Shown here one piece after another: positions 10,588 through 55,777 of a DNA stretch of 64,000 nucleotides. The number at the start of each line of letters is the position of its first letter. Positions within the stretch are counted from its first letter, which is position 1. The notes beneath the pieces were generated by a model. The model saw only the letters and a program-made list of their open reading frames with translations. It searched no databases and had not been told where the DNA came from. Location of the stretch: positions 87,197,501 to 87,261,500 of the forward strand of contig CM027381.1 in the NCBI GenBank assembly GCA_015680905.1, written 5' to 3'. Source of the stretch: Coptis chinensis. Its lineage: Eukaryota > Streptophyta > Magnoliopsida > Ranunculales > Ranunculaceae. Made by a program: the position numbers and the translations under genes.

Positions 10588-11017
10588 CAATTTAGTTGGA
10601 ATAGATGGCTAATATTATCATTTAGATAATGTTTTATATTGGTATAATTAGTTTAATTTGTTGACAAGCGCCAACCTTGTATGTTTCTATGTTTGACACA
10701 CTATTATTAAGAAAAAATAAAAATAAAAATACTGATAGTTGACAAAGAATGCGACTTGTAGTTGGCTGGTCTGACTTGGCATAAAAACAATATAAATAAG
10801 AGATTCAAAAAGAAGAAACCAGTATTATCCAACCAAAAGACTGCTATATATGGAATATGCATGGGTATTATGCTTGAGAAATGTGACTAAAAGAACCAAA
10901 AATCAGTGGTGCATTTGTACGAACACTGTAAATGAATCGAAATTTGGTTATGCTTATTGACTTTATTTGGATTGATTTAAGTGGAATGAGTTATCTTCAT
11001 TTTGATGATTTAAAAAA

Positions 11018-11167
11018 GAGCATGTCTTCAGTGCGCAGGTCGTATGGTGCGCAGGTAGTTATGGGCCTTTGGATTAGTACTTTTGCCATTAAATACACAC
11101 GCACCCCTGGTATGAGTGGCCGAGATGTAATGGCGCACCATACATCTCGCGCACCATAGATTTAGCC
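11018..11167. mobile_element. Small Mutator-like MITE, only in copy 1
   Basis: This 150-bp insertion is flanked by a 9-bp duplication, TTTAAAAAA (11009-11017 and 11168-11176). Copy 2 has the uninterrupted site near 35938. The termini are GAGCATGTCTT and GATTTAGCC. The interior carries inverted TATGGTGCGC / GCGCACCATA motifs. In reverse orientation it resembles the insertion at 26669-26794. Confidence 0.8.
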
Positions 11168-11176
11168 TTTAAAAAA

Positions 11177-11488
11177 GGGGATAGTTATATGAACTCTACT
11201 TAAAGTTACTTTGTGTCTTTGTGATGATCGATCCTTGAATTGTTTGTCCATCACAACACGTCTTCCGGTCTTCCCCCGAAAGATGACCAATTTAAAAGTA
11301 GCACCGCTCACGGCTAATGTCAATTATGGCATTATGGGTACGTGTTTTGGATGCGGAAAGACACTCATTGCCTCATTGGCATGTTTTGGCTAGGCTCCAA
11401 AGAACCACAGAACACACTCTTTAATTTATCATGTGAAATTTGATTCTATATTTGATTCACAAACATCTTATGAATCAAAGTCACGAGA
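11177..11488. other. Non-coding spacer in copy 1
   Basis: No gene was recognised. The segment is shared with copy 2 near 35945-36253. Short frames here are not conserved between copies. Confidence 0.3.
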
Positions 11489-12330
11489 TTTTTTTTTTAA
11501 GAAATCACCCAAGAGGAGGGTGGGGGTTTGGCAAGACCTGCCCCCTACCAGTTTATTAAAATAATACAAACTAGTAATGGATTATAAGAGGAGACATCAA
11601 CTTTTACCCCTGCTCAAAACTTACATTCGAAGAAGAAAAACAATTAACTACACCTATCTAGTGGCCAAATGCGTAGGTTCCCTAATCCACAATAATTATC
11701 CAACTATAACAAAGATCTGGTGTTGTTAGGCACTTCACTTAGTTCACTCAATGCTTAAAAATCACCAGACCCTCGATTCATACTAGCTAATTTTGCTAGA
11801 GCATCAGCAAGAACATTGGCTTCTCTATAAACATGAATAACAGTAGTCAGTAAGACATAAAGTCTCTAACAAAAGTCACAATGTTGCAAAAGTACCATGG
11901 CACATGTGTTTTACCACCGACCCAATTTGCCAAAAGCTTGGAATCAACTTCAATTTGTATCTTCATAAGCCCCCTTGTACTGCAAATCTTGATATCCTCA
12001 ACCAAAGTCATACATTCTGCCAAATTATTACTCGCTACACCAAAGTGTTTATAGAAACACATTATAAAGCACCCATTTTCATCTCTAATAACACCACCAA
12101 CACCTCCAGGTCTGGGATTTGAAATTAGAAATGTAAAACACAACAATCTCTTGCACATAAATTACTCCGTGTAACGCGTAGAGGGTTTTTTTTATGGCTT
12201 GTACATAAAAATAAAGCACTACATGCTCGGGCGGAAGTAGCTTGGGATTGGCCGATTGGGAGCTTAGCTCCGTACCCTCATGGCCATACCTGTCCAAGAA
12301 AAACTTGGCATAATTCTGCACAAGCAAGGC
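11489..12330 (-). pseudogene. LINE RNase H fragment with poly-A tail
   Basis: On the minus strand, a frame at 11847-12158 encodes an RNase H domain start: GGVGGVIRDENGCFI, then NNLAECMTLVEDI, then IEVDSKLLANWV. These are the D-E-D catalytic strands of the RNase H domain closing plant L1-type LINE ORF2. About 350 bases of 3' UTR and an A-run (T run on the plus strand at 11489-11498) follow. Reverse transcriptase is missing, so this is a 5'-truncated dead copy. The sequence at 12160-12330 also has an open minus frame (YAKFFLDRYGHEG...), which I do not recognise. Confidence 0.6.
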
Positions 12331-12519
12331 TCAAACTCAAATGGCGCGCGAACTCAACCTCGAATTGAGGTAGTACATATATATCGACTAGCTAGACAAC
12401 TAATATAGCAAGTTGGGATATGTATACTGCTTAGACTTATCACACGCACACGAAAGTGCTTTCCTTTCGTAATCCCACATGTGTTGTACCTTTGCTTTGG
12501 GAGATTTATCATCATCTTA

Positions 12520-13292
12520 TAGCATCATCAATGCACTGCTATTTCCCATTTCTAAAAACATCGTCAACGCAATTCTAAATTGATTTCGACACATCAACTT
12601 TTTTAGAACCCAAAAAGTGCAATTTCTATGTTAAGCTTCAATGCGATTTTGAAAAAAAATAATAATAATCTTTTTGGACGGGAGAAGTAGCGTCATCCTT
12701 TTTTTTTTTTTTTTTTTTCCTTTTCTAAAGTGATTTCTAAAATATTTTCTTACATATATACAATAATTTCATTTTTTGTATTATTCCCAAAAAGGAGACG
12801 GCTAAACTTGTCTCGTCTAAACCATTTCTATAATTCTCACAAAAATAGTTTCAATTTTAACATCAATTAGAGCATCATCAACCCATTTCTAAATTTGATT
12901 TCTAATGTGACAGTTGACAATTTATTTGACAATTTTTGTCCCCAACGCGTTGTTATAACAACGTTTTCATAATAACAATTGTCAAATCCGGAACCAAATT
13001 ATCTAGAAATATAGAAATGACTTGCACGGGACAACTTGTCTCGTCCAAAAGTGAGACGGGACTACTTTTGCCATCCAGAATTTTTTTCGTTTTTTTTTAA
13101 TAAAAAATTCCAAATGGCTCGATTTTATACCGTTGGGCTTTTGGAATTTGACATGGGACAACTATTTCCGTCCAAAATTAAAAAGCAAATTTTGCCCAAA
13201 ATGCACTAGTTCTTCTCTTCGTTTTAGAAATTTTAAAGTACCAAAACTACTGAGGTGTCACAACGAAAAATGAAAATGCATTGATGATGCTC
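12520..13292. mobile_element. PIF/Harbinger-type MITE (773 bp)
   Basis: The terminal inverted repeat AGCATCATCAATGCA / TGCATTGATGATGCT is perfect over 15 bp, with TTA on both sides (12517-12519 and 13293-13295). A second internal copy of the left end starts near 12868 (GAGCATCATCAACCC), suggesting internal duplication or a nested relative. GGGACAACTTGTCTCGTCC-like motifs recur inside. Non-coding. Copy 2 holds it at 37273-38040. Confidence 0.7.
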
Positions 13293-14542
13293 TTACTGCG
13301 ATAGATATGAGTTTATTTTTATTTTTTGGTAGGTAAGTTGAAATGTATTAAAAAAGTGAAAAAATTACAAAGAATGGTTTGAGTTTGGGCAATCCAAACA
13401 CAGTTTCTGACAAAAGTGCCAAGTGAACACCAACAAACTGGGTACTAAATCTTACAGTTTTCTAGCTTTACTCCCCCCCCCCCCCCACCACATCCAAATC
13501 AACTGTTATCTTTTTTGTCAATGCATGTAAAAAGACTTTATTGCCTTTTGCCCTTTGCTTTTTTAATAGTTTTCTAGCTTTTTAAGACCACAACACATCC
13601 AAGTCAACTGAGTTTGACCGTGATGTTTTTGGTCAAGACAAATGAAAAGACTCTAATGCCCTTTTCTAAGTATAATTACATAAATACCCTGTGACTTTGG
13701 CAAATACAAAATTGGAATTCAAATCATCTAGGACACGAGTCATGATTTTGTGAACTCTATCCGATGGCTACCACCAATCATTAGCAAATGACATCCACAC
13801 CCTTAATATTATAAAATTACATAATTAATCTCACGGTTGTTAAAAGTTACACGTATATTAGGAGAAAACCAACCGTGAAAAGGCAATGGAGTCTTTTTAT
13901 GTGGTAGTGGTGTATGACTTGGAGAAGATAATTCTACAGTGATGGTAGTTGTCACACCCCAAATTTTCAGAAAATCTAAAATAGGAAATTTTCCAGGATA
14001 TAAATATCTCAATTGTCACTACCCTATTCAATCATCTGAAAACTCAGGATGAAACGAAACCCTAATAACCTATTTTTCCAAAATTAACTCACGGTATAAA
14101 AATCACTTACATTCCACTCATTAAATACACATATGATAACTTATTTAAATATGAGTTTTATACACTTTACCTTTAAGCCAGCACGTCCCTGTATACAAGA
14201 TTAACGAATCCTACCCCTCTGCAAAAACAGAGTTAGACATCACAATAAAAGGATTTAGCTAAACCAGTCAAATTTTCATTCATAATCAAAACCTCATTTA
14301 AGACATTGAAGTCTAATTGATACCACATAGTTATCACTAAACTAATATATAATATGTAATATGGTGGCTGCACTTTTGCTCAAAACTGCCCACGTATCCA
14401 AATCTTTCAAGATTGGAATCAAGCCTTCGTAGTTCTTAGTCTTATTTGTCTCGCATAAATATCATATATCCCTCTTGTAAACTCGTACTTGTGAGTCACA
14501 GCCATCTATAGACTTTTAATGCTCATAAAACCAAGCCTCTTA

Positions 14543-17500
14543 GGGCATCTCCAATGGGGGGTGTAAAATTACACCTCCACCTAGGCTCCACGTAGGTACC
14601 ATTAGGATTTTACACCTCTAATTGTATAGTATTGTATAGCTTATAAATATCCACACTCTATACTCTCCAATGGAAGAGTGTAAAAAAAAAAGATTTTAAA
14701 CTCGGACGTCACTTGGAGTGACGTCCCTCTTTAATTTAAACTGGGACGTCACTTGTAGTGACGTCCGAGTTAAAAAATTACTTTAGAATTAGAAAGGGAC
14801 GTTACTCCAAGTGACGTCCGAAAATTATTTTACTCAGACGTCAGTTTGAGTGTCGCCCGGGTTTTTTATTAACTAATAGCGAGAGGGGGAATTCCCCACC
14901 CTCTCTATTAGCTAATACACTATTACCCACGGTATAGCACCCCCATTGGAGAGAATTTTTGTCACACCCCGAATTTCGACAGAATTCGGAAAAACATTAT
15001 TTGTTCCCGACTCTTCGATCTCCGAGGTGTGACGCACTCTCAACTCCCAAAAACCCATAAACAGTTTAAATATGTGGATAATAAAAACCAATAAAAATTT
15101 TAACTTAAACAAAAGTCTTCTTCATGACAAAGATTCACAAATAAGATTAGGTTACAACTCTCCTTTCAATAACTCTTTAATAAAATTTACAAATGAAATA
15201 CAAAAACATTGTCTAGATGAAATTCTATATCACCTCAAGGAAAACAAAACAAACTCGAGATCAACGCTATTTATAAATCACAAACAAAGAACCACTCTTC
15301 TTCAACACTAAACCTCGCTAAAACTTATCAACTATGTTCATTGAATGAACACACCCGATAAGCAAACATGCAAATCGGGTCAAGATTATAAAATTTACAA
15401 ATGAAATACAAAAACATTGTCTAGACTGAAATTCTATATCACCTCAAGAGGAAAACAAAAAAAATCTCGAGATCAACGCTTAACGCAAAACCACAAGCAA
15501 AGAACCACTCTTCTTCAACACTAAACCCATCAAAACTTATCAACTATGTTCATTGAATGAACACACCCGATAAGCAAACATGCAAATCGGGTCAAGATTA
15601 TAAAAATCTTTGGTGTGAGTAGCTAAAAACAACATATACTTATACAAATATATACATAATCCATACGGCAGTTAGTTCCTCCACCGGAAGCCTTTAACTT
15701 TCAATCGACTAATATAACATACTTAAGTACAATAATCTAGGCGGGTAGTTCCTCCAATCGAGGCCTTTAACTTCCAACAACTAATACAACATACCATACG
15801 ATAATAAAAGGCATTTAGTTCCTCCACGACAGGCCATAGGTTCTAACTAAAATACTAACCACCAAATCATATACAATCATCTATCTAAAGATATATCATT
15901 TACCAACATATTACCATAATTATATTAATTTAGACTTTCTTTGTGTGTCTCTAAAATCACGTCAGATCTATGTCTTACCTAGTTTCCGGCTACTAACAAT
16001 CGCTACCCAACGCCTTAACATGTACATCCACATGCCTCCCCTTACATAATGAACCACTCCGTGCGTAACCACCCCGAAGCGGGATGCCGCGACACCGGTA
16101 AATCCTCACACGGAAGCAATTATGTAAGTAATGCCACTATTCGGCATAAAATATCGTGGCATCGTTCTATTTTGCGAAAACGAATAATCAAGCCACTATT
16201 CGGGCTACGCCGGAGGGCCATTCAAATTTTCATCAAACGCCGGGAGGGTCAATCACATTACTTTTACGCCGAAGGCCATTCAGATTAACTGAAACGCCGG
16301 AAGGGCTAATCACATTATTTACACCGAAGGCCATTCAGATTAACTGAAACGCCAGAAGGGCCAATCACATGAGTTGTCGTAGCTAGGTTCTAAGATTTTC
16401 GTTACGTAATTTATTCAAGTGTCATACATTAATGACTCATAATAAAATTCCACTATATCACGTCAAGTGTGTCAATTACCTTATTGCACTAAGCCACAAT
16501 ATTTAGACATATCTCAATTATTTCACATAACCACTTTCATTATTTCACGTGTCAATATATTATTGCGCTTCACCACACTCCCGTGGGCAAATATTCATCA
16601 ATATTATACTACCTCATAGTAGCATCTCACATATATAATAATGGAGCGTTTATATACATTTCTCAAAGATATTGCATTAATATATATACTCCAACATATT
16701 ATATCATGTCACAATTACTTCAACGTATCGCATACATTTTTAGTATAGCGTATTAGGAATATAACGTCTCCTAACATCTCAATATCGTCACGAGTCAAAA
16801 ATACACAACATCAATGTCCAAACTTTCTTAGATACTAACAACCAAATTTATACAAGCTTCCACAGCATTTTATTACTACATGTGTCCATATAATATACAA
16901 CATAAAACGTAGCACAATTAGACAGTCCACAGTCCACAATCAAAGCCCAATATATATATGTTTTACACACTACTCACGTCAAATCTAAATTAGATAATGA
17001 CCAACCAAGTTATATAATATCAACAATATTTTATTACTATATTTGTCCATACAAATCAAATAGGTGAAAAACTGGAAAAGTCAACATTTCATAGTCAACG
17101 GTCAAAGGTCAAAGTCAACATGTCATAGTCAAAGTCAACCATCAATAGTCAAAGGTCAACATGTCTCGGGGTCAAAGTCAAACTGTCGTTTCCATGTTCG
17201 ACAAGGTTGAGGTGGTCATAGCCATGGTTCATGGCTAAGGGCAAAGGTGCATAGCTTCATGGCTAAGGTAATGGTTAGGACCTAACCTGGCCAAACCCAA
17301 ACCTTAGAACCCAAAAGTCTAAAAGTTGAAAGACCCATGTAGATCTATTTTAAGTCCAATGGATGGCCCCAATCAATATTAGAACTCGCCCAAAATAGTT
17401 AAGTGGTTCGGTCCAAAAATTGAACCAAAACCTAACTAAAACTAAAACTGAAATTTCGCCCAACCACCATTGAAATTTCGGTCTAGCCACTAAAAGAAAT

Positions 17501-18879
17501 CGCCCAAGACAAAACACTTAAACATTTCGCCCAACAACTTAAAATAGAATCAGGCCCAAACAAAACCAAAAGGTTTTGGCCCAAGGCCCAAAGCCCAAAT
17601 CGGCTTGGCAATCGTTTCATCTTCTTCCCTAGCTACCACCACCAAAGCCAGCCACCAAAATTTTCCGCCACCCACTCCCCCATTTCGACAAGTCGGTTGG
17701 ACTCAAACAAACAAAACCTCTAACATTAATTAACGCCAAAGCCTCAATTCTTGAATTTACATCTCGACCAAAACTAGATCGAGACCAAATTCGGCGGCCA
17801 CCATTAATGGTGCCTCAAGCTTTAACGGTGCCCCCTCACTCTACTACACTACCCCACTACCACCATTCAAAATCCAACTACAACCACAACCAAAACAAGC
17901 TCACAACACCGAAAATTACAAATAAAATTCCAAACCCTCAGTATCACCGTATCAACCTCGCGCCCCCCCTTATCGCACCGCAAGCTTCAACAACACACTA
18001 CACAACCAACAATCAATCCCCCAACAACAAGTTCCAACCAAAACCCAAACACCAAGTTTAATTTAAACTGGCGATTTCCGGCCGCCATTGACGCCATTTG
18101 GGAGCTTCGACAGCACCATTAGCACCCTTCAAAAGCAGGTTAGGTTTTGATCCCCAACCAAAACCCACACTATACTATACTACCCATCTCGATTCCAACA
18201 TAGGTCACCACCGAAAAGAAACAACTCGACCTCCATTGACTTTCTTCAAAGCTATCCACACAACAACAACAAGATAACAGAAAAATGAAATACAAACACT
18301 TCCAAAACATATGGGACCATCGTTTTTGTTTTGGTGAGGGCTTCATGGGCCATTAACGACCTCGGTCCCAACGGTTTAATTACAAACCAAATTTAACAAA
18401 ATTTAATAAAACAAATGGCACGAAGTCCAATACAACAGGATAATGAGCGATTATATAAAACCAAAACAAGATATCTGAGATATATGTAAACTACAAATCC
18501 GGTGAAATAGCAAAATAGCTACTCACCTGTACGAACAGCTCGACGAATCCTCCTAGCCCGATTCGTCGCGCTCCACCCTCCAGCAAACGAGCTTCAAGCT
18601 CTGCCTCCATTTTCATTATTTTATTATTCTCTGAACCCTATTTTCCAGAACAATGTGTTTATATACTTGGGTCCGAAACCCAAGCCCAACACCGACTCGG
18701 GCCCAGAAACCAGGCCCACGTGTCTCAAATCCGATCCAGCGAATTTTGAAAATAAATAATTAAATTAATTAATTAAATAGATAAAAACGTATTTTTAAAA
18801 TACGGGCGTTACAATTTTTTGATATTTGGAGTGTAAAATTTCCACTCTATACGGTTTACACCCCCCATTGGAGATGCCC
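14543..18879. mobile_element. PIF/Harbinger MITE interrupted by an inner solo LTR
   Basis: The left end is GGGCATCTCCAATGG, the right end CCATTGGAGATGCCC, and TTA flanks both sides (14540-14542 and 18880-18882). The MITE itself is about 478 bp. Its relative at 25398-25840 is uninterrupted and gives the empty-site sequence. GACGTC-rich inverted motifs (GTGACGTCC) are repeated through its middle. Confidence 0.85.
14960..18813 (+). mobile_element. Inner solo LTR (3.85 kb)
   Basis: It starts TGTCACACCCCGAATTTCG and ends ATACGGGCGTTACA, with a perfect 5-bp duplication, ATTTT (14955-14959 and 18814-18818). The uninterrupted MITE elsewhere in the window confirms the insertion point. No internal coding region was found. 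Contents include a duplicated block of about 205 bp (15170-15378 and 15384-15600), a short repeat of about 57 bp with CCGGAAGGGC motifs (16200-16370), GGTCAAAGTCAA runs (17085-17170), and a proline-rich-looking frame at 17807-18061 that I judge non-genic. Probably the LTR of a Ty3-type element. Confidence 0.75.
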
Positions 18880-20724
18880 TTATGGCATAAAACTCAAGTC
18901 ATTCATGGCACATTCAATGAATACCTTAGGTCATTCCCGCCATATTCAAGGAATACACAAATCTACATTCTTGTACAATCAAGGAATACAACTAACCCGC
19001 AAGGCGAATACCTTAGTTCATCTCTAGGGCAGTCCAAACAAACTGGTCATTCATGGTACATTCAATAAATACCCGGGTCATTCATGACACATTCAATGAA
19101 TACCCCTTTATAACGCTAACGGGTCATTTATGACACATTCAATAAATGCCCACCTAACATATGACATCATCAGTCATAAAATCTCATTTCCAAAACTTAA
19201 GGCGTGGAGAGTTCTAAAAGGGTGTGGTAAATTTGTGTATGCATTATTAAACTTTATTGCATATATTATTTCAGAGAACGGAAGAGTATCTTCTTTCGTG
19301 TATTATTGTTTACGCGTTATTAATGATATTGATGTCTAATTGTCATAGCGTCGTATATTATAAAATACTGAAATATCACATAGTAGTTAATACACGTACA
19401 CGTATATATATAAAGGTCTTATCCTAAAGCCAAGCACGCTAATAGCCCTAGATCGATACTAATAGACCAAATCATAATTCGAGTTAAAAGTCAAATTTGG
19501 TCAACTAGTCAAAGACAACTCGGGTCAACTAGTCAAAGTCAACCCTGGTCAATAGCAGTCAACCAGTCCTAAACTCATCTAACCCAAAACCCCAAAGACT
19601 AATGCCCAAATGTATATAGCCTTTCCCAAGCCCAACTAAACTTAAGCCCATAAGTGAAATCTAAAAAAGAATAAAACACTCAAGCCCACATAACTGATTT
19701 CGGCCCAAGCCCACAAAATAAAAATAAACAGATCACTACCTTCTTCTTCTTCTTCCTCACATCTCGCCACCTCCACCGATTAGCCACCACAAACCACTAA
19801 CCCTCCTCCACTCTAACCCCATCGGTTTCACTCCTCACAAAAAACCCAATAGTTTGACACCACTAAAACCCAATTCCATCACTGCCGAAATCGTGTTTGA
19901 AGCCATTAACGCCTCGTCAAAGCTTCACAAAGACTCAAACAACAATCAAACCACACCGAAAACCACTTTCGGTTTCAATCCCCAACCAAAAGCCCAACAC
20001 TATTGTATAATCAAACTTGATTTTCCCCAAATCTTAAATCGCGAAGTTAACGCCATTTATCGCTTCTTCGGAACTTCAACAATACCCAACAACAACCAAC
20101 ATCTACTAATACAACATACTCATCATCATCCCAAAGATAACAATTAGGAAAAATAAGAATTTGGCGTAGATGATTTCAAAAAATTATAAAAGCGCCACCA
20201 TTGGTGACTATAGAGAACATCGAGGAATCCTATTTATGCCTACTCAAAGTGAGGCTTGAGTTCGCATGAATGGCCATACATCTTTTTATCAAATCAACAT
20301 TTTATCACAATGTTCCAAAATATCGATAAGAAAAATCATTAACTGATATGATCAGTAAAAATTTAAAAGAACATGTTCATACTACTCACTATTTGTAAAC
20401 CGAACAGCTAGATTTCCGAAAGTGGAAAAACCCCGAAAGACCGAAGTCGAACTGTAGCACGAAGAAGATGGTCTTCATCGTTCGAAATCTTTTCTTTTTT
20501 TCTCTTACACAGCAACCCCTCACTGATGTTACTCTCCTTTTCGGGGGGGAGGGGGGGGGGTTTATTTTTTTTTATTTTTTATTTTTTTATTGGTAAAAAC
20601 CTCTACGTGTGAATTCCTTTTTGTTTTTAAAACCCCCCACCAAAAAATAAGGATGAAAGTTATCTATTTATCTACGGGGCTTTTATCCTTAACTAATAGT
20701 TATCATATATTTTTGGTTTTTATC

Positions 20725-20770
<46 letters not shown>

Positions 20771-21450
20771 GTACTAGGAAAATTTAAAAAAAAAAACGGG
20801 ATGTTATAGTAGTGATGGTGTATGGTTGTCGGAAAGAGTTCACAAGATCATGACATGTGTCCTAGATGATTTGAATTCTAATTTTGTCTTTGCCAAAGTC
20901 ACATGGTATTTATATAATTATACCTAGAAAAGGGCATTAGAGTCTTTTCATTTATCTTGACCAAAAATATTACGGTCAAACTCGGTTGACTTGGATGTGT
21001 TGTGGGTCTTGGGGGTAAATCTCTAGATGAAATAACCGAGGGGTAAAGCTAATTGGCCTAAGTTTTGGGGTAAACCTCCAGATGAAAGAACTATGAGGAT
21101 AAATTACGGTCAAACTTCGGTTGACTTGGATGTGTTGTGGTCTTGGGGGTAAATCTCTAAATGAAATAAGCGAGGGGGTAAAAGCTAATTGGCCTAAGTT
21201 AAGGGGGTAAAACTCACAGATGAAAGAACTATGGGGATAAAGCTAATTGGCCTAAGTTTTGAGGGGGTAAAACTAGAAAACTTTTAAAAGGGCAAAAGCC
21301 AAAGGACAATGAAGTCTTTTTATATACATTGAGCAAAAAGATAACAGTTGACTTGGATGTGATGTGATTTTGGAAGGTGATTTTGGAAGGGAGTAAACTT
21401 TTAGATGAAAGAACTGTAGGGGGGATAAAACTAGAAAACTGTTAATCTTA

Positions 21451-23427
21451 TAGAACTAATAGAAGTGCATTGGAGACTGAAATTGTAAAAAAAAAAAATT
21501 GCAATTGTCACATTAGAAACTGGAAATAGCCGTGCCTTGATGGTATTCTCAGTTTTTAATTTATTTGTACTGTTAGAGGCTTAGTGGAAAAGAAATGACA
21601 CACATATATATAGATGTATTGGGGATCGGAATAAATTACTTATAACAGTTAAAATTTGTTTGCCTAACCTAATTGTACGTTTATCATAAACTGGAAAAAT
21701 TGTGATTGGTTAGTTTTTTTCAAAACAAAAGGGCAAAAAAACTCAATAAACTGAAGTATTATTGAGACAGAGAAAAGACTATGTTCTCCATTTCAGAAAA
21801 TAAATGATTTTGTTGATATTATTCAAAAATTAAAACTTAATTGCATTAAGAGAATTACGAATTAAATGTGACCTAAAAGGAACAAAATAATTAAAATGAT
21901 TTAACAGTTAAGACGAAATTAAGCTATTATGTACTTATGTGAAGCAAAATATCTCAAGCAACGTACAAGTTGAAGTAGTGTTGCACCGAACCATATCAAA
22001 GATGAACCATGGCAATCAGTAGTTCACATGCTTTCCTCTCTTTTTTGGTTTTTAATATTCACTTTTACGGGTTTTTTAATACAGCAACAAACAAGTTGAT
22101 CCTCCGAAAATAGCGAACTTAATTATCACATGCGAGAAATGATATGGTTGATCGAGAAATGGATAATTTATTTTTATTCATTTTTTTCGAGAAGGATAAT
22201 TGGGTTTGTAACCATTTCATATTCATCGCTGATTTTATTTCACAATCGTTATCTCATTGGTATCATATATAAATGTATTACACAATAAGTTGGTATCAAA
22301 ATGAAATTACCAAAAGAAAGTTGGTATCAAATGATATCCAGCACGTGGTAAGGCCTGCGACGCAGTTGGTTTCGGTAAAATTTTATGTTGCTGTAGAAAC
22401 CGGTTTAAAATCCTATAATAAGGTTTTAGTTGATCAATCATACGTATAAATGGCAAATAATAACATCCAATTCATAATTGTATTCCATAATTTGAATATT
22501 TTTTGAAAGTAAACATTATTTAGCACTTCGATCAGTCAATCACAAACTCACAAATTATACAAATCATTACTAAGGTGAATTTTGAAGCATGTCAAAGAGT
22601 AATGTGTTGTCGATGCTCTATCTACAATAACTTTGGACAAAACTATCAGTTAAGCCTATTTGGCAGCATGAATGGGCCAACCTGTACATGGGTTAGGGTG
22701 CACTATCTGGTTTTTTTGTTTGATTCATATATTTTTTGGATTATATACTATGGACCTTAGGCTACTAGTTGGTTGGCCCAATTCAAAAAATCTGTATATC
22801 GGTATCTATTGATTCCGTTATTCAGTAGTAAAACTAAAATAAAAATCATCGATTAAAACTCAAAAATAAGGAATAAGAAAACAGAAAATACTGTGGCTTC
22901 TTCATTTATTCTTCTTCTCCAGCCATTAAGCTCTGAACCCCACGAAAATTTAAACAGTCACAATCTCTCTAAACCCATCTCTCTCTATCCATCACCTTTC
23001 CTTTTTCTCCCAATATCTTTTGGTCAAGAACTCTTGAGGATGAGGTTCTTGAAGCCATGTTATATCTTAATTTGTTTAGCTGATTTGGATGAATTGGAGG
23101 GTGGGTATTCATATAGAAACTCTCACTTGTATAAACATACTCGTTTGAGTAGTAAAAGTTGGCTTTTTTTTTTTTTTTTTTTTGAATTTTAGTTAGAATT
23201 CTAAAATGTAAAATTATCAATGTGATGGATAGAATGCTTTAGTATATGCAATTTCAAATGGTGAATTTTTTTGATAAATTTATATTATTTCTTGATCCTA
23301 CCGTGATTCAATTTCAATGGTTGTTTTTTTAGTGGATTTACAACAAAAATGATACCAAACACCTTCCACACTGGTTTTGAGTTCTTCATATATCTACAAA
23401 CTTGTTTATACATTGTATATGAACAAC
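21451..23427. other. Non-coding region upstream/downstream of the duplicated genes
   Basis: Nearly 2 kb without a recognised gene, conserved in copy 2 at about 46100-48114. It contains a poly-T run at 23164-23182 and a (TTTTTT)-rich part near 22060. Short plus frames (22575-22760, 22893-23192) lack domain features. Confidence 0.3.
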
Positions 23428-23931: not shown

Positions 23932-23963
23932 AAAGTGATTCAAGAGTTGCGTTTAAATTTATA

Positions 23964-24000
<37 letters not shown>

Positions 24001-24219
24001 AATCTATTTCAGACTAACAATACAATGAGGAGACGATCCAATGGAATGATTGGAATCTACCGTGTGCAGCCTGCCATGTCAACTTAATAAGTTATTTTTT
24101 ATGTTGGGCTGACCGCACTCTTTAGATGGCGTGGTGAGAGAGGTTCCAATATTTCATTTGCTCCTTCAATCGACTAAAAGTTTGCTTCAAGGAGTTCTCT
24201 CTCTCTCTATTTAAATCAA

Positions 24220-24435: not shown

Positions 24436-24505
24436 CGGAATTACTGATGAATGAAGAGATGGAGAAACATAATGACTCAATGAATTCAACATTTCCTAGA
24501 AAACG

Positions 24506-24513
24506 TATTTATA
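24506..24513 (-). promoter_or_regulatory. TATA box of the copy 1 peptide gene
   Basis: TATAAATA on the minus strand lies 71 bases upstream of the ATG, which fits a leader of about 40 bases. Confidence 0.5.
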
Positions 24514-27302: not shown

Positions 27303-27339
<37 letters not shown>

Positions 27340-43576: not shown

Positions 43577-45393
43577 TTATGGCATAAAACTCAAGTCATT
43601 CATGGCACATTCAATGAATACCTTAGGTCATTCCGCCCATATTCAAGGAATACACAAACCTACATTCTTGTACAATCAAGGAATACAACTAACCCGCAAG
43701 GCCGAATACCTTGGTTCATCTCAGGCGATCCAAACAAACCGGTCATTCATGGTACATTCAATAAATACCGGGTCATTCATGACACACATTCAATGAATAC
43801 CCTTTATAAGCTTAACGGGTCATTTATGACACATTCAATAAATGCCTTACCTAACATATGACATCATCGGTCATAAAATCTCATTTCCAAAACTTAAAGT
43901 GGAGAGTTCTAAAAGGGTGTGGTAAATTTATTGTATGCATTATTAAACTTTATTGCATATATTATTTTAGAGAACGGAAGAGTATCTTCTTTTCGTGTAT
44001 TATTGTTCTGGCGTTATTAATGATATTGATGTCTAATTGTCATAGCGTTAGAGTATATTATAAAAATCTTGAAATATCACATAGTAGTTAATACACGCAT
44101 ACATTATATATATAAAGGTCTTATCCTAAAGCCAAGCACGCTTAATAGCCCTAGATCGATACTAATAGACCAAATCATAATTCGAAGTTAAAAGTCAAAT
44201 TTGGTCAACTAGTCAAAGTCAACTCCCCGGTCAATAGCGGTCAACCGGGTCCCTAAACTCATCTAACCCAAAACCCCAAAGACTAATGCCCAAATGTATA
44301 TAGCCTTTCCCAAGCCCAACTAAACTTAAGCCCATAAGTGAAATCTAAAAGAATAAAACACTCAAGCCCACATAATTGATTTCGCCCAAGCCCACAAAAT
44401 AAAATAAACAGGATCACTACCTTCTTCTTCTTCTTCCTCACATCTCGCCACCTCCACCGATTAGCCACCACAAACCACTAACCCTCCTCCACTCTAACCC
44501 CATCGGTTTCACTCCTCACAAAAAACCCAATAGTTTGACACCACTAAAACCCAATTCCATCACTCGTCAGAAATCGTGTTTCGAAGCCATTAACGCTCCT
44601 GTCAAAGCTTCACAGCACTCAAACAACAATCAAACCACACCGAAACCACTCGGTTTCAATCCCCAACCAAAAGCCCAACACTATTGTATAATCAAACTTG
44701 ATTTTCCCCAAATCTTAAATCGCGAGTTAACGCCATTACTGCTCTTTCAGAACTTCAACAATACCCAACAACAACCAACATCTACTAATACAACATACTC
44801 ATCATCATCCCAGCATAACAATTAGGAAAAAATAAGAATTTGGCGTAGATGCAGTATTTCAAAAAAATTATAAAAGCGGCCACCATTGACTGACTATAGA
44901 GAACATGCGAGGAATCCTATTTATGCCTACTCAAAGTGAGGCTTGAGTTCGCATGAATGGCCATACATCTTTTTTTATCAAATCAACATTTTTATCACAA
45001 TGTTCCAAAATATCAGATAAGAAAAATCATTAACAGATATGATCAGTAAAAATTTAAAAGAACATGTTCATACTACTCACTATTTGTAAACCGAACAGCT
45101 AGATTTCCGAAAGTGGAAAAACCCCGAAAGACCGAAGTCAACTGTAGCACGAAGAAGATGGTCTTCATCGTTCGAAATCTTTTCTTTTTTTCTCTTACCA
45201 AAGAACCCCTCAGCGATGTTACTCTCCTTTTTAGGGGGGTTTATTTTATTTTTATTTTTTATTGGTAAAACCTCTGCGTGTGAATTCCTTTTGTTTTTAA
45301 AACCCCCACCAAAAAATAAGGATGAAAGTTATCTATTTATCTACGGGGCTTTTATCCTTAACTAATAGTTATCATATATTTTTGGTTTTTATC

Positions 45394-45441
<48 letters not shown>

Positions 45442-46099
45442 GGTACTAGGAAAATTTTTAAAAAAAAACGGGATGTTATAGTAGTGATGGTGTATGGTTG
45501 TCGGAAAGAGTTCACAAGATCATGACATGTGTCCTAGATGATTTGAATTCTAATTTTGTCTTTGCCAAAGTCACATGGTATTTATATAATTATACCTAGA
45601 AAAGGGCATTAGAGTCTTTTCATTTATCTTGACCAAAAATATTACGGTCAAACTCAGTTGACTTGGATGTGTTGTGGTCTTGGGGGGTAAATCTCTAGAT
45701 GAAATAACTGAGGGGGTAAAGCTAATTGGCCTAAGTTTTGGGGGTAAACCTCTAGATGAAAGAACTATGAGGATAAATTACGGTCAAACTCAGTTGACTT
45801 GGATGTGTTGTGGTCTTGGGGGGTAAATCTCTAAATGAAATAACTGAAGGGGTAAAGCTAATTGGCCTAAGTTCTGGGGGTAAACCTCAGATGAAAAACT
45901 ATGGGGATAAAAGCTAATTGGCCTAAGTTCTGAGGGGGTAAAACTAGAAAACTTTTAAAAGGGCAAAAAGCAAAAGGCAATGAAGTCTTTTTATATACAT
46001 TGAGCAAAAAGATAACAGTTGACTTGGATGTGATGTGATTTTGGAAGGGAGTAAACTTTTAGATGAAAGAACTGTAGGGAGGATAAAACTAGAAAACTG

Positions 46100-48114
46100 T
46101 TAATCTTATAGAACTAATAGAAGTGCATTGGAGACTGAAATTGCAAAAAAAAAATTGCAATTGTCACATTAGAAACTGGAAATAGCCGTGCCTTGATGGT
46201 ATTCTCAGTTTTTAATTTATTTGTACTGTTAGAGGCTTAGTGGAAAAGAAATGACACACATATATATAGATGTATTGGGGATCGGAATAAATTACTAATA
46301 ACAGTTAAAATTTGTTTGCCTAACCTAATTGTACGTTTATCATAAACTGGAAAAATTGTGATTGGTTAGTTTTTTTCAAAACAAAAGGGCAAAAAAACTC
46401 AATAAACTGAAGTATTACTGAGACAGAGAAAAGACTATGTTCTCCATTTCAGAAAATAAATGATTTTGTTGATATTATTCAAAAATTAAAACTTAATTGC
46501 ATTAAGAGAATTACGAATTAAATGTGACCTAAAAGGAACAAAATAATTAAAATGATTTAACAGTTAAGACGAAATTAAGCTATTATGTACTTATGTGAAG
46601 CAAAATATCTCAAGCAACGTACAAGTTGAAGTAGTGTTGCACCGAACCATATCAAAGATGAACCATGGCAATCAGTAGTTCACATGCTTTCCTCACTCTT
46701 TTTGGTTTTTTAATATTCACTTTTACGGGTTTTTTTAATACAGCAACAAACAAGTTGATCCTCCGAAAATAGCAACCTTAATTATCACATGCGAGAAATG
46801 ATATGGTTGATCGAGAAATGGATAATTTATTTTTATTCATTTTTTTTCGAGAAGGATAATTGGGTTTGTAACCATTTCATATTCATCGCTGATTTTATTT
46901 CACAATCGTTATCTCATTGGTATCATATATAAATGTATTACACAATAAGTTGGTATCAAATGAAATTACCAAAAGAAAGTTGGTATCAAATGATATCCAG
47001 CACGTGGTAAGGCCTGCGACGCAGTTGGTTTCGGTAAAATTTTATGTTGCTGTAGAAACCGGTTTAAAATCCTATAATAAGGTTTTAGTTGATCAATCAT
47101 ACGTATAAATGGCAAATAATAACATCCAATTCATAATTGTATTCCATAATTTGAATATTTTTTTTGAAAGTAAACATTATTTAGCACTTCGATCAGTCAA
47201 TCACAAACTCACAAATTATACAAATCATTACTAAGGTGAATTTTGAAGCATGTCAAAGAGTAATATGTTGTCAATGCTCTATCTACAATAACTTTGGACA
47301 AAACTATCAGTTAAGCCTATTTGGCAGCATGAATGGGGCCAACCTGTACATGGGTTAGGGTGCACTATCTGGGTTTTTGTTTGATTCATATATTTTTTGG
47401 ATTATATACTATGGACCTTAGGCTACTAGTTGATTGGCCCAATTCCAAAAATCTGTATATCGGTATCTATTGATTCCGTTATTCAGTAGTAAAACTAAAA
47501 TAAAAATCATCGATTAAAACTCAAAAATAAGGAATAAGAAAACAGAAAATACTGTGGCTTCTTCATTTATTCTTCTTCTCCAGCCATTAAGCTCTGAACC
47601 CCACGAAAATTTAAACAGTCACAATCTCTCTAAACCCATCTCTCTCTATCCATCACCTTTCCTTTTTCTCGCAATATCTTTTGGTCAAGAACTCTTGAGG
47701 ATGAGCTATGTAGAAAGTGGGGTTTCTTGAAGCCATGTTATATCTTAATTTGTTTAGCTGATTTGGATGAATTGGAGGGTGGGTTATTCATATAGAAACT
47801 CTCACTTGTATAAACATACTCGTTTGAGTAGTAAAAGTTGGCTAGTTTTTTTTTTTTTTTTTTTTTTTTTGAATTTTAGTTAGAATTCTAAAATGTAAAA
47901 TTATCAATGTGATGGATAGAATGCTTTAGTATATGCAATTTCAAATGGTGAATTTTTTGATAAATTTATATTATTTCTTGATCCTACCGTGATTCAATTT
48001 CAATGGTTGTTTTTTTAGTGGATTTACAACAAAAATGATACCAAACACCTTCCACACTGGTTTTGAGTTCTTCATATATCTACAAACTTTGTTTATACAT
48101 TGTATATGAACAAC
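46100..48114. other. Non-coding region, copy 2
   Basis: Counterpart of 21451-23427 with very few differences. No gene was recognised. Confidence 0.3.
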
Positions 48115-48619
48115 CTAATGCAGGGTAAACAACTCCTGCCAAGGATTAATCTTCCTTGAATAAGGTCTAGATGGGGGTTTTGATGGTGCAAGCTTTGAGA
48201 GATCCGTGGCCATTGGTGCGGGTGCCTTAGCCTCTTCATGCCTGTTACCCAATTGGGCACCTTCGTAACGTCCTCGGCCACCCTGCACAGGAAAATGTCA
48301 TTTTTCAGTTCACCAACAAAGTATGATGTACAATAAGACGGTGATGACGTAGTGTTTGAATTTAGTTGAATAATTTTGGCGCCAAGAAAATGAAACGTAG
48401 GTGAAATTGCACCACTGTTTTGCAGGTATTTAGTTGAAGTTTCAACACCATTGTGCATGTCATCTTAACTCCTTCGGGTCAGAAATGGATGAACCCTATG
48501 ACGAATATGAATTGAAGTGCCAAAATGTATGTGTAGTTGAAATTTTACCACAATGTGGATATCTACTTCATACCTTGGTCTTCAACGCCCCAACCTTGTA
48601 ACCAATATTGATCTTTCTA
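48115..48619 (-). CDS. Last two exons of an unrecognised gene, copy 2
   Basis: Counterpart of 23428-23931. The last exon is 48282-48115, the intron is 48573-48283 (291 bp, the same length) and the preceding exon ends at 48574. The encoded C-terminal 55 residues are the same as in copy 1. The same caveats apply: upstream exons are not found and no domain is recognised. Confidence 0.4.
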
Positions 48620-48652
48620 AAAGTGATTCAAGAGTTGCGTTTAAATTTATAT

Positions 48653-48686
<34 letters not shown>

Positions 48687-48907
48687 AATCTATTTCAGAC
48701 TAACAATACAATGAGGAGACGATCCAATGGAATGATTGGAATCTACCGTGTGCAGCCTGCCATGTCAACTTAATAAGTTCTTTTTTATGTTGGGCTGACC
48801 GCACTCTTTAGATGGCGTGGTGAGAGAGGTTCCAATATTTCATTTGCTCCTTCAATCGACTAAAAGTTTGCTTCAAGGAGTTCTCTCTCTCTCTCTATTT
48901 AAATCAA

Positions 48908-49123
48908 TCAAGCATAAAGATTTCTTACCCAATTGATTATCCGGAAACAAGAACCAAAGCACGTAAAACGGCAACGAGTGTTTTCCCATAAGTCTATGGC
49001 CGAGGCGGAACACTGGCTTTGACAACCTGAGCATTGATTAAGTGATAATGCTTCGAGCTGAACTACACTAGCAAAGAGAACAATGCCTAGAACAAACACC
49101 ATCCTATCTCTGGTATTTGCCAT
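48908..49123 (-). CDS. Small secreted cysteine-rich peptide, copy 2
   Basis: It encodes the same 71 residues as 24220-24435, with the same signal peptide and six-cysteine pattern C-x2-C-x3-C-x12-C-x3-C-x3-C. The upstream TATAAATA element and leader are also conserved (about 49194-49201), so both copies could be expressed. If the duplication is real, gene dosage is doubled; if it is an assembly artefact, there is one locus. Confidence 0.6.
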   Translation of the reverse strand: MANTRDRMVFVLGIVLFASVVQLEALSLNQCSGCQSQCSASAIDLWENTRCRFTCFGSCFRIINWVRNLYA

Positions 49124-50024
49124 CGGAATTACTGATGAATGAAGAGATGGAGAAACATAATGACTCAATGAATTCAACATTTCCTAGAAAACGTATTTAT
49201 ATGTTCTTTCTTCAACTGTCTCTCCCCCGGAAGGACAGTTTGGTTGGTAACAAATGGTTAAAAATAGTTGACTTAGGTCTATATACATCTTTCTCAACAA
49301 GACAGCTCCACTTTTTATTGTTTAATTTGACTCTCTTAAAATTAGAAAATCTTAAAAATGGAAAAATAATTAAATATCAATCATCCAACAAATTACAATT
49401 TTGAAGATGAGTTTGTCCAGCATCATGTTACCCTAAACAATTATCAAATGAAATAGATATATGCTAGATTTATGGATTCATATGTACAATAACAAAAATA
49501 TTTCAGTATTAACAATATATTGTTACAATAATTGGAAGATCGGCCCAACTGGCCAAGCACATTATCCATCTGTTTATAATGCCTCTACCAAATTCTCTAA
49601 ATCCATTCAACTCGCCATATTCAACAACAATCTTGTCAACAAAAACCAATTACACGACATAGCCATTGAAACTCGAATGGCTGTACATGGGCCTAGTAAT
49701 CAATAGTGGTGCTCGCTCAGCATTTCTTAAATTCTCATTCCCCAAGCCTGCTAGCATTATCTAATAAAGAAGATGAAAAAATATTAATGGGCCGGGCCAT
49801 TTCACATATGCCTGGTGGTGGTTTCATAGGATTTTCTTTATAGTCTACATGCATAATAATCTCAAACAAACAAAGTTATCGAGTTAATTAATTCATAAGA
49901 GAAAATGTTATTGATGCTGCTAGGACATTCCTTAAGCTCCTTAAGTGCTCAATCCAAAAGGACGCGTTCTCTAAGGAAAGAAGTGGCGTAGCCACGTGTA
50001 AAGTTATATATGATATATATGAGG

Positions 50025-51197
50025 GTAGGGATGTGCATGGTATCCTATTACCTAAACCGGAATCGTTTATAGCAGTTGTGTTAAGGCATTTCCAATGAGA
50101 GTGTAAAATTACACCTCCACCTAGACTCCACGTAAGTGCCATTAGGATTTTACACCACTAATTGTATAGTATTGTATAGCTTATAAATATCCACACTCTA
50201 TACTCTCCAATGGAAGAGTGTAAAAAAAAATAGATTGTATAGCTTAATTTAAACTGGGAGTCCGAGTTAAAAAATTACTTTAGAATTAGAAAGGGACGTT
50301 ACTCCAAGTGACGTCCGAAAATTATTTCACTCGGACGTCAGTTCGAGTGTCACCCGGGTTTTTTATTAACTAATAGCGAGAGGGAAAATTCCTCACCCTC
50401 TCTATTAGCTAATACACTATTATTACCTACGGTATAGCACCCCCATTGGAGAGAGTTTTTTAATATTTGGAGTGTAAAATTTCCACTCTATACGGTTTAC
50501 ACCCTCCATTGGAGATGCCCTTATAAAATATTATACCCATTAATAGTGGGTCTTCAAGAACCGAACTGAGAAAGAACTGAATGGTAAAAGAACGATTGGG
50601 TACCGAACCCGAAACCAAAATCGATTATTATGATTTTGATATATAAAGTTTATAGATTATATTACACTAAATAAATATAAACCCAAATATATAATAATAT
50701 ATAGTATTTTTTTAAGTATAAAAGTCTACTAACTATCTGAGGGGTATGTAGCACAATAGTGAATGTATATTATTAAATACATATTTTGTACCATTACATT
50801 ACATTGAACATGCATGTGTACTATAAATATTAATAATAATGTTAACGACTACGCCCATGTATACTATAAATTAGTTAATACACTGTATATATTAACTAAT
50901 AAATGTGTACATGATAATTTATATAAGTGCACGTGCTTTATATAGTACATTGCACGTATGTATATATATAATCGCAATTTTAATAATAATAATAATAATA
51001 TATAATCTGAGAAGGAACCAAAACCCAAATCGGAATCGACTTAATTAATGGGTATGGTTTCGAAGTTTTAAAAAAAAAAAAAAAAACAAACAAACAAACA
51101 AACAACTAAATAACCGAACCCGATAGGAACTATTAAAAATAAAATTGAACTCGGAACAGTAATAACCAAACCATAACCAACCTATGAACACCCCTAC
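50025..51197. mobile_element. hAT-like element with a nested MITE, copy 2
   Basis: Counterpart of 25339-26511, with flanks ATATGAGG (50017-50024) and ATATGATG (51198-51205). The nested Harbinger MITE is at 50084-50520 with TTA on both sides. Confidence 0.6.
50084..50520. mobile_element. PIF/Harbinger MITE, copy 2
   Basis: TTA-flanked (50081-50083 and 50521-50523), right end CCATTGGAGATGCCC. Same family as 14543-18879 and 25398-25840. Confidence 0.85.
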
Positions 51198-51510
51198 ATA
51201 TGATGTCAAATATCAATATAACGCAAACAAGTCCAATTTAGATGACAAAAAAAAACAAGAGAAACTCTGCCAATCGCGAATTTTACAAAAAAATTCATAT
51301 TTGCAAAAAAGATTGGTGGTGTAATATGATAATTTTAGACATTATTTATTTCACTAAATTGACTCATAATGACAATCGAGTGACATCGCCACGGGTTAAA
51401 GTCTAGTAATCTAATAAAAAAGAAGAAAAAATATTAATGGCCCGACTCATTTCACATATGGCTGGTGGTGGTTTCATAGGATGTTTCTTTATATATATAG
51501 TCTATATATC

Positions 51511-51843
51511 CACTACAAGAAAAAAAAGGTTTTATATCATTGTTAAAAACAGTGATAAAAAGTCTTTTGTCACTGTTTTTTTTTTTTTCCAAAAACATGA
51601 CGGAGTGAGTCATTTTTTTTTTCTCAAAACCGTCACAAATATTTGTTCCAAACTAGCCTATCTCTACCATAAAAAATGGTAACAACTGCTCAAAAACCGT
51701 CACAACAAATCATATCATTTGTGACGGTTTTAAATAAACTGTTATGCATTCATCCTTTTGAAGGGTCATAAAAAATACCATTAGTCATGACAGTTTGGAT
51801 AAAACCGTAATATGTATATTTTTTTTTTTTAAAAAAAAAAACG

Positions 51844-51916
<73 letters not shown>

Positions 51917-52704
51917 CCATAAAACGTAAATATATATATATATATGAAAACTCATAAAACTGGGGACGTACAATAAACTACACACCTTAATAAACTACAT
52001 ACCGGAATATGATCCATTAAATTTCAAGTACCACTCATATATATTGCTAATTTCATTGAAACAATCTCTTTAGATAATCAATATACATTTGTACTTAATC
52101 ATAAAATGTAATTAAATAAATAACACATTTTCAATCTAATTCATATAAATATAATCAGCCTAATCCAAATCCAAATGAAAAACTAACCTAATCTCGTCAA
52201 AATCAATCAACTACATATATGTCTTCAGTCTTATGGTTAATCTTCGTCTTAAGGATAGTTCATAATACATTCTTGGATAACATTACAAATTTCAACTTAT
52301 CGCCAACTAGTACAGGAAGAAGAGCTTGATCTTTACCTTACAAAATTTTCCCAACTGCTACATGTGTGTTGTATTGTCCTAAGGGAACATTATACAACTC
52401 AGTTTCCGGTCCTAGCTCCTCGTAGACTATACCCTTAGCAACAACATTGGATTTGAAATCCACAGCCAAACTGCGACTCTGGCCCTAAGATGAATTGTAA
52501 AGTCATAATGGGTTTAATTGCAAATACAACATAAAATAAGAATTCGAGCATTACTATTCACATTTCCAAGATCCAATGTATGATTTCGTACTACTGCACA
52601 ACTTGTAGTTACTTCAGCATTTTCCTTTTTTAGAATTTTTTGCTGGTATCGGAGAATTAGCCTTTTGGTCTTTAACTATTTTTAGGTGAGAATATTTAGA
52701 AACT

Positions 52705-52747
<43 letters not shown>

Positions 52748-55007
52748 ACATGAAAAAAAATATTTTAAAGTACTTCAAAATAAATTAAAACTTAATGAAA
52801 TTACCTCAATGCCTTTCAATCTCGAAAGTGTTTTGGCCAAGCAACTTGTGATCCAAGAGCATCTTTCAAAATTACCCATTTCATCAGCGAAATGGTATAG
52901 GAAGAGCAACATGATCTTTACCTTCCAAAATCTTATCAACTGATACGCGTGCGTTGTTTGGCCCTAAGTGAACATTGTGCAAGTTTCAAACTATAGACAA
53001 AACAACAAATAATTTCAATGGACTAAAAAAAGGTTAAAGAAAATATATACCTTTAGCAAGTCACCACAAGCACATGCCCTTCTTCTTCCTATACCTTGTT
53101 CATTAACCTAAAAGATAGAATCAATTCAAAGGCATCTATAGTGGCCCAACACTAGACTACAAAGATGGACCAACTCGTATTATGCAAAAATCAAAAGCCA
53201 ATATCATCATAATTATTGCTAGAGTTTATAAATTAATAGTTGGAACACAACAGATCCACTAATAAAGGTGCACATTGCTCCTACGAATTATGTTCTCAAG
53301 CGAATCAAAATTTGCTTTGTACCACAACTTATATTCTAAGGGTAAAATAAAAAACAATAAGCACCTCAAGCCACATGAATATTTGGTTCTTCTAAATTGA
53401 CAAAGGCTTCTGCCCGAGCCATTCACATTGTTGCCACATGCCATGAGACCAGGCTCTTCATAAACACATTCACGTACTTCCCTTTCTCATTCTGTTCAGC
53501 GTTCCAAAAAATATATATATTAGTGGATGAACTCAATATAGTCTAAACATATATTCTCATTTTTCATTTATAGAAATATTTGAATTTTAAACAAGCAACA
53601 AAGACTTGTTGTTTACTGAAATAAACAACAACTTCATGTTGTCAATCCTAGCCATCTAGGGCTTAAGACCCATGATCTAATACGTCTAAATTTCATAGTT
53701 GCTAATTAACTGACCAATTGAAAACCAAGGCCACCATATTCGATTAAACTAAGATTTCATCTTTGCAGGAGAAATCAAATCATGAACTTAACCAGTTGGT
53801 TCAAGAGTACGAAAGATGAAAACAAGTCACTAGCAAAATCTTTTACTACGTAGGATAGTCGTCTGTCATTACTCATGGTTTCTTCACTTCATGCCAATTA
53901 CCAACAACAAAACAACAACAATAACCAAAAGGAAACAAAAGAAAATCGCAATTAAGATATGAAATATGTCAAGCAAATACTCATTGTATTACTTGCAATT
54001 AGAGTGATATGCCAGTAAATTCGAGACAACCAAAATTCACGAATAATACCAACACCCCATTTCTTCCATAAAATTTATGTTCTAGAGCACATGTTAATCC
54101 ACCTTAAAAGAGCACATAAATAGATAGATGCTAGCTGTGGATTGAAATGGGCAGGCTCATAATTATTATTGTATCATTTTCTTATGAATGACTATGGTGT
54201 GAAATATACTTCACACCTGACTCCTCGCAAAGACGACTGCAGTGTTAAGCACTAAAGAATCAGATGGTTTGTTAATGTCAATAAATAAATGGAAGAAAAT
54301 AACTTACTGGAGTTTATCAGCATTGAAAAATACTGTACAAGAAAGATGTTAAGGCCAAGAAGAATTTATGTGTCACAAAAAAAATTGTCTATAAATAAAA
54401 TTAGGAAAGAAAGAGTTTACAAAATGTAATAGGAATAATTACTTACAAGTCCTGCCTCCACCAACTATCGAGTTCGTAATCCTTGAAAGCCTGGTGCTGG
54501 TGAAGATTGAATAGAAGAGTTTCACAAACGAAGAGAAAAGGGAGGGACAATTAAAATTCAAGGCAGTCGAGGTCAATTACCACTGAAATTCGAAGACCCA
54601 CCCAAACTAGAGTTCGATCAAAGTTGATTATCCACATTGTAATTGACTTAAAATGCACCTGGATTTTGGAAACCCCAACTAATCTTGAAAGCCCTAAGGG
54701 AATAATTGATTTGATATTTTGATATGTGTTACCGAAGTGGAGTCTTTTGTTTCAACTTTTGTTTTTGCTAACTGTGTAGTGGAGTCGGGAGAGTCGGGGA
54801 CTTATGGTGCGGGACAGAGTAAATTTCGGTAGTTATCTTTTTAGTTTTTTTTTAATGTGGGTAGTTATCTACTTAATCCTATTGTAACTGTTTATCTAAA
54901 AACAGTGACTTATATGTATATTGTAAAAAATCATTTGTCACTGTTTACATTACCCCCGTGATAAATACTCGATAAAACAGTCACAAAAACCCTTTTTTGT
55001 ACTAGTG
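51511..55007 (-). mobile_element. CACTA (En/Spm) element, copy 2
   Basis: Termini are CACTACAAGAAA and TTTGTACTAGTG, with the same ATC/ATG flanks as copy 1. The (AT)n tract (51843-51913) is much longer than in copy 1. The transposon protein remnants at about 52250-52980 and 53259-53444 match copy 1 with a few added disruptions. No intact transposase. Confidence 0.8.
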
Positions 55008-55777
55008 ATGCATAATAATCTCATAAACAAACAAAGTGATCGAGTTTAGTTTGAAATGAACAATCAAATGTATGAGATTGCTAGCAAGTTCTGATAAGTA
55101 ATTGTTGAATTATATGTTAGTGGTGATACTAGGAGAGTTGTGACATTGATATATTAGATAAACCAATAAGAATAACAGAGAAGACTGGAGATTGATTAGG
55201 GTTAGAGAGTTTTTGTATTTGAGTTCTCTACCCAGAGTTACATACTTATACTAAAACTAAAACATGATAATAAAAACTACTAGATATAGATGTCCACACT
55301 TATAGAAATATGGGACTTTCCATATTGGACATATTCCAACACTCCCCCTCAAGCTGTAATTATGCAAACTATGCAAATTACAGCTTGAATTACAAAAAAC
55401 AAAATATAAGAATAATGTTCCTCCTTTTGCATAGAACTGTCTTTAGTTGAAGAACTCGAACAACTGTTGAGACGTTCTAGAGGTGAAACTGTCAGTGTAG
55501 GCAATGACCTAACCTGAATACTGAAGGTACACCACAGTCACAAACTGAAATCATAACACCAGTTTAGTAGCGCGCTATTTGCTTGGCTAATACTCACTCC
55601 ATTCGCTGTTATGGATGTCATAATATAAATTGAAAACAATAACACTGACTTGATGTGCGCTTCTTGGCTGCTACTATCAATATCACTGTTAATGTTAACA
55701 AAATACTATTATGGGTACTCCTGAATACTGAATACTGATGCAGTTATAACTTGACTGCTACTTGAATCCTGATAAGT

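Follow-up and report, generated by a model that had tools for sequence, protein, structure and literature searches.

The locus considered here raises a question that any assembled tandem duplication raises: does it record an event in the plant, or two versions of one locus that the assembly has laid head to tail? It lies in a 64-kb stretch of the genome of Coptis chinensis (assembly GCA_015680905.1, contig CM027381.1, forward-strand positions 87,197,501 to 87,261,500), hereafter the window, and all coordinates below count from its first letter. A preliminary description of this DNA had proposed a direct tandem duplication of about 20 kb, closed by blunt end joining and carrying a gene for a secreted cysteine-rich peptide. 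Our analysis of the sequence gives about an even chance that this is a real direct tandem duplication of some 20 kb of plant DNA, which makes it slightly more likely than an allelic artefact.

The two copies and the seam between them

The tandem layout, with the same two ends bounding both copies, is borne out by self-BLAST and by MAFFT alignment. The copies are co-linear, direct and adjacent (Table 1), and self-BLAST joins them by blocks of 15.7 kb at 93.6% identity and 3.4 kb at 96.9%, plus shorter ones. This co-linear match is far beyond chance.

The junction strings quoted in the preliminary description are also found in their places and nowhere else on the plus strand, the strand that was searched: the 12-mer left of the seam occurs only at 35546-35557 and 55452-55463, and the one to its right only at 10626-10637 and 35558-35569. 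Because the bases preceding 35558 and 10626 differ, as do those following 35557 and 55463, the seam is blunt as written, in agreement with the earlier statement that no base overlaps. The match at the seam is exact over 16 bp to the parental right end and over 91 bp to the parental left end, and there is no N anywhere in the window, the seam being written as contiguous sequence. Bluntness to the base is nevertheless likely rather than certain, since the wider region looks poor even though the adjoining 16 and 91 bp match exactly, and a local consensus error could mask a base or two of microhomology.

Concerning the parental breakpoints, both were correctly placed by the preliminary description, the left one just upstream of the first peptide open reading frame (ORF), here called p1, at about 110 bp from its start codon, and the right one inside a long terminal repeat (LTR) element, the Copia-like element at 55103..57588. 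With 1 kb around each breakpoint compared by blastn, no convincing homology emerged between them, only short weak matches, the best a 20-bp one on the opposite strand (E 0.035). No transposon terminus and no target duplication were seen at the seam; to its left, an LTR edge lies at 110 bp and the end of a Helitron-like insertion at 206 bp.

The copies are set apart by three insertions present in copy 1, which, with 4,987 bp of gaps in the alignment, cover nearly all of the 5,026 bp by which the lengths differ. The largest is the stretch 30664-35351. Helitrons begin with TC, end with CTRR and insert between A and T without target duplication; the ends and the insertion site of this stretch agree with that description, and we take it to be Helitron-like. 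No target duplication was seen at it, and its uninterrupted site is present both in copy 2 and in the second Copia-like LTR (57348-57588). The hairpin fold near its 3' end is weak (-1.6 kcal/mol), and the list of frames of at least 70 amino acids contains one frame from it, of 74. At 31772-35259, tandem arrays fill much of the insertion, with units of 54-55 bp (about 70% alike) and with a 219-bp unit repeated 2.9 times.

The other two insertions are miniature inverted-repeat transposable elements (MITEs) of 150 and 126 bp, each with a 9-bp target duplication. They share an end reading GGCTAAATCT and are 72% alike over a match of 58 bp (E 4.9e-05), and appear to be one family. In copy 2 the empty sites reproduce the insertion flanks to within one or two bases, that of the 150-bp element having one A fewer. 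Three insertions in copy 1 whose empty sites are kept in copy 2 indicate that the copies derive from two different molecules, be they paralogues or alleles. They also exclude a homotype false duplication, in which one sequence would have been assembled twice.

Divergence and sequence quality around the seam

Divergence between the copies is strikingly uneven, ranging from 0 to 13% substitutions per 500-bp block in the MAFFT alignment, and it goes with transposon content and with distance to the seam. For this reason, dating of the duplication by copy divergence was rejected. The stretch 13001-21442, mostly a Mutator-like element, has 519 substitutions and 212 gap events in 8,193 bp. For the near-identical core of the unit, gene conversion was weighed as a possible cause.

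Short indels are over-represented: the whole unit gives 693 substitutions to 326 gaps, against 203 to 26 in control repeats (Fisher 3e-11). The control consists of ten repeat pairs, namely the LTR pair 55103/57348 and all self-BLAST pairs of which neither arm lies in the unit; the pairs that come from one tandem array overlap, and a self-palindrome at 2201-2381 (16:12) was left out. The excess holds at p <0.001 in six of the seven sub-blocks tested, the seventh, 25201-26095, showing none against the control (44:8, p 0.48). Uncorrected long-read consensus typically contains too many indels of one or two bases. Substitutions also cluster near gaps, 237 of 519 lying no more than six columns from a gap event, where 31.5% of all columns do so, a pattern that can arise from alignment as well. 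Much of the copy divergence looks like consensus error.

C-T differences in 12826-20032 occur more often at CG (88 of 775 sites) and at CHG (59 of 395) than at CHH (139 of 3,941), a bias that random error would not predict and that lends real support to a process resembling repeat-induced point mutation (RIP). Neighbouring indels of opposite sign, which would have favoured the error reading, number 43 pairs where 49 are expected. Neither the CG/CHG enrichment nor the lack of a surplus of opposite-sign pairs fits simple random error. RIP-like hypermutation as the main cause is, on the other hand, spoken against by the indel excess and by the share of transitions, which is lower between the copies (307 of 519) than in two LTR pairs (42 of 54; Fisher 0.008).

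A third related sequence within the window allowed us to ask which copy had changed, in 14 comparisons that represent 13 tracts, one of them with two outgroups. Private changes are more numerous in the copy nearer the seam in 11 comparisons and equal in two. The single contrary case is the right terminus of the Mutator-like element (7 against 1). Six of the 14 are individually below p 0.05, each with the seam-nearer copy more changed. For some tracts the third sequence lies inside copy 1, which could favour calling copy 2 changed. Three tracts are free of that bias or opposed to it: MITE_a, with its third sequence in copy 2 (43 private changes in copy 2 vs 3), MITE_b, with its third sequence in copy 1 (27 in copy 1 vs 3), and LTR_5, with its third sequence outside the unit (23 in copy 1 vs 0). 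The rate of private change falls with distance to the seam (rho -0.64 over 28 values), the significance of which is overstated since the tracts form about two domains and are not independent.

The seam itself is a point of abrupt change. Its left side has 13 substitutions and 9 gaps in 204 aligned bp, and the first 150 bp to its right have no substitution and one gap; the left side is transposon sequence and the right side is not. Moreover, the copy-2 counterpart of an RNase H-like fragment (about 36.6-37.0 kb) is broken, the one piece scanned scoring 15.7 bits vs 45.1 for copy 1. Taken together, the indel excess, the private changes near the seam and this broken fragment suggest a trough in sequence quality around the seam, at roughly 25-45 kb, within about 10 kb on either side. 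No part of the unit lies at a greater distance from unique flanking DNA than the seam, and poor anchoring by itself could therefore account for lower quality at that place. Such a drop fits either a true duplication poorly anchored in mid-unit or an allelic false duplication.

Origin of the tandem layout

For a real duplication, the mechanism that best accounts for the observations would be end joining, given a seam without homology, breakpoints without a convincing shared repeat and no transposon terminus at the junction. One break would have fallen in the interior of the Copia-like element and the other in the region upstream of p1, on sister chromatids or homologues, and both would have been joined without homology by non-homologous end joining (NHEJ). 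The Helitron-like element and the two MITEs, of Mutator type, would have entered copy 1 later. As for the small differences between the copies, consensus error rather than evolution would account for most of them, particularly in transposon sequence less than about 10 kb from the seam, and the divergence would then give no age. The earlier preference for end joining over recombination between repeats stands insofar as there is no microhomology and no convincing breakpoint homology, and it is conditional on the duplication being real.

Several observations weigh against that condition. The concentration of private changes in the seam-nearer copy suggests weak read support, and the indel excess points the same way. 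The segment 21443-25200 has only 16 substitutions and 17 gap events in 3,749 bp, so low a divergence that two alleles might show it too. Finally, a published study (PMC9516828) reports that erroneous k-mers are more frequent in false duplications, whose joins are either gaps or unsupported filled sequence.

These points lead to the strongest rival, an allelic (heterotype) false duplication, in which haplotypes with and without the Helitron-like element and the two MITEs were laid head to tail and the seam represents abutted or gap-filled contig ends. Few substitutions in mid-unit together with presence or absence of transposons would make an ordinary two-haplotype picture, and would suit young paralogues as well. 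The peak of private changes to the left and right of the seam, out to about 10 kb, and the abrupt change of quality across it speak for this account, and the same study describes false duplications that lie on a single scaffold and contain additional erroneous k-mers (PMC9516828). However, no N gap separates the copies, and a direct join requires wrong gap filling or a chimeric read. We consider this account a serious contender, somewhat short of an even chance.

Alternatively, the locus could have been joined to a copy from elsewhere in the genome by a chimeric long read, or by wrong gap filling that has nothing to do with haplotypes. The apparent loss of quality around the seam would suit such an error, which is nevertheless improbable: the same locus would have to fall in tandem order by chance, and copy 2 continues into the remaining Copia-like element as expected. 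A real duplication made by non-allelic homologous recombination (NAHR) between repeats, or by alternative transposition of a DNA transposon, is very improbable, for although the unit is rich in transposons, including the 8-kb Mutator-like element, and maize Ac ends are able to make tandem direct duplications by a reversed-ends transposition that leaves 8-bp target duplications at the junctions (PMC3744419), neither convincing breakpoint homology nor a transposon terminus or target duplication was seen here. No better chances attach to a real duplication whose uneven divergence is biological, the silenced transposon sequence of one copy having mutated far faster than adjacent unique DNA, with C-to-T changes at CG and CHG, by a copy-specific RIP-like process.

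The preliminary description is thus right on the layout, and its interpretation is plausible, although the sequence around the seam on which it depends looks poorly supported. What it missed are the concentration of differences near the seam, the three transposons of copy 1, and the fact that two alleles falsely placed in tandem would give just such a sequence.

Further features and comparison with known systems

Concerning the peptide gene, the claim that the unit duplicates one holds in that a cysteine-rich ORF (p2) recurs in copy 2 as an identical frame (p3); the change of gene dosage proposed in that description is a possible consequence. The ORF next to the breakpoint, p1, is a different one and lies outside the unit. 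The two peptides p1 and p2 are about 28% identical with no significant E-value (0.85 and 1.3); neither has a Pfam match at E 0.1, and a PDB search gave no match for p1 and a chance-level one only for p2 (E 0.51). A cysteine spacing like that of Ole e 6 or of thionins was considered as a candidate and was not confirmed.

Table 1. Positions of the duplicated unit, its seam and breakpoints, and the principal features in and beside it
Feature	Position	Strand	Remarks
Copy 1 of unit	10626..35557	+	24,932 bp; self-BLAST, MAFFT
Copy 2 of unit	35558..55463	+	19,906 bp; self-BLAST, MAFFT
Seam between copies	35557..35558	.	blunt as written, 0 bp common to either side
Left parental breakpoint	10625..10626	.	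upstream of peptide ORF p1, about 110 bp from its ATG
Right parental breakpoint	55463..55464	.	interior of minus-strand Copia-like element, 120 bp from its LTR
Helitron-like insertion, copy 1	30664..35351	+	4,688 bp; 5' TCTACTAT..., 3' ...CTAG; between A and T
MITE, copy 1 only	11018..11167	.	150 bp; flanked by TTTAAAAAA (9 bp)
MITE, copy 1 only	26669..26794	.	126 bp; flanked by TTATTTATT (9 bp)
ORF p1, just outside unit	10307..10516	-	69-aa cysteine-rich peptide
ORF p2, copy 1	24220..24435	-	71-aa cysteine-rich peptide; signal-like N-terminus, by eye
ORF p3, copy 2	48908..49123	-	71-aa peptide, identical to p2
Mutator-like element	13455..21441	.	about 8 kb; long inverted termini; counterpart in copy 2 at about 38.2-46.1 kb
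Copia-like LTR element	55103..57588	-	about 2.5 kb; LTRs 55103-55343 and 57348-57588 (self-BLAST)
LTR first part, copy 1, left of Helitron-like insertion	30522..30663	-	self-BLAST
LTR second part, copy 1, right of Helitron-like insertion	35352..35447	-	self-BLAST
RNase H-like fragment, copy 1	11847..12161	-	Pfam RVT_3, E 1.2e-11; 104 codons readable

The largest transposon of the unit is a candidate Mutator-like element. In its terminal inverted repeats the arms measure 177 bp (93%) and 96 bp (84%), and it is flanked by a 9-bp repeat, TAAATCTTA / TTAATCTTA, in which 8 of 9 bases agree. Mutator elements make a 9-bp target duplication, and on both its long termini and its flanks the stretch answers to that type. 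The sole ORF of the element that was scanned (16493-16756) has no Pfam match. The GC skew of its interior (14001-20000) is -0.27 to -0.32, and that of copy 2 at 38-44 kb is -0.18 to -0.31.

The unit ends within the Copia-like element, and copy 2 runs on into the rest of it. This element has no long ORF, its longest listed frame being of 101 amino acids, and what we take by eye to be a tRNA-Met-type primer site and a polypurine tract adjoin its right and left LTR, respectively. The remnant of a second Copia element lies on the plus strand at 2824-6761, with LTR-like repeats at 2824-3405 and 6182-6761 (92.8% identical) and, between them, gag, zinc-knuckle, integrase and reverse transcriptase fragments in separate frames.

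Simple and tandem repeats occur both in the unit and beside it: an (AT)n run measures 100 bp in copy 2 (51846-51945) and 30 bp in copy 1 (27306-27335), an 86-bp unit is present in 4.4 copies at 8043-8418 (89% matches), and a 100-bp tandem repeat (60090-60368) directly follows the ORF 59812-60087, which has a sub-threshold Pfam match to At2g29880_C (E 3e-05, 24.7 bits for a cut-off of 26). Scans of the window found no tRNA and no RNA family reaching its gathering score.

A real duplication here would add one to the recent tandem duplications of plants whose end-joining seam can still be read, with a peptide ORF that is identical in both copies. Whether event or artefact, it belongs to an ordinary kind. 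Of wider use is the warning that a clean-looking blunt seam may lie in a trough of sequence quality, and that the divergence of the copies is then not readable as age. Polarisation by a third sequence, combined with the substitution-to-indel ratio of unrelated repeats, offers a way to suspect poor quality without reads.

Among known systems, the closest to a real duplication by end joining comes from rice, where 27 non-co-linear copy-number genes were assigned to a mechanism, 14 to NHEJ, 12 to transposons and one to NAHR, the inference being drawn from the breakpoints (PMC4812662). The rice end-joining cases have in common with our locus a seam without breakpoint homology. In contrast to those non-co-linear gene copies, the present locus consists of two adjacent direct copies, and it is known from assembled sequence alone, with low-quality-looking surroundings at its seam. 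The heterotype false duplications of PMC9516828 resemble it in having two copies on one scaffold, error-rich-looking sequence and allele-like differences; they differ in that no N gap marks the seam here, and a main mark of that class is half depth. Finally, the Ac reversed-ends transposition of maize (PMC3744419) likewise produces direct tandem copies in a transposon-rich plant region, whereas the seam of Coptis chinensis is without a visible transposon end or target duplication and passes directly from the interior of a Copia-like element to the sequence upstream of a peptide ORF.

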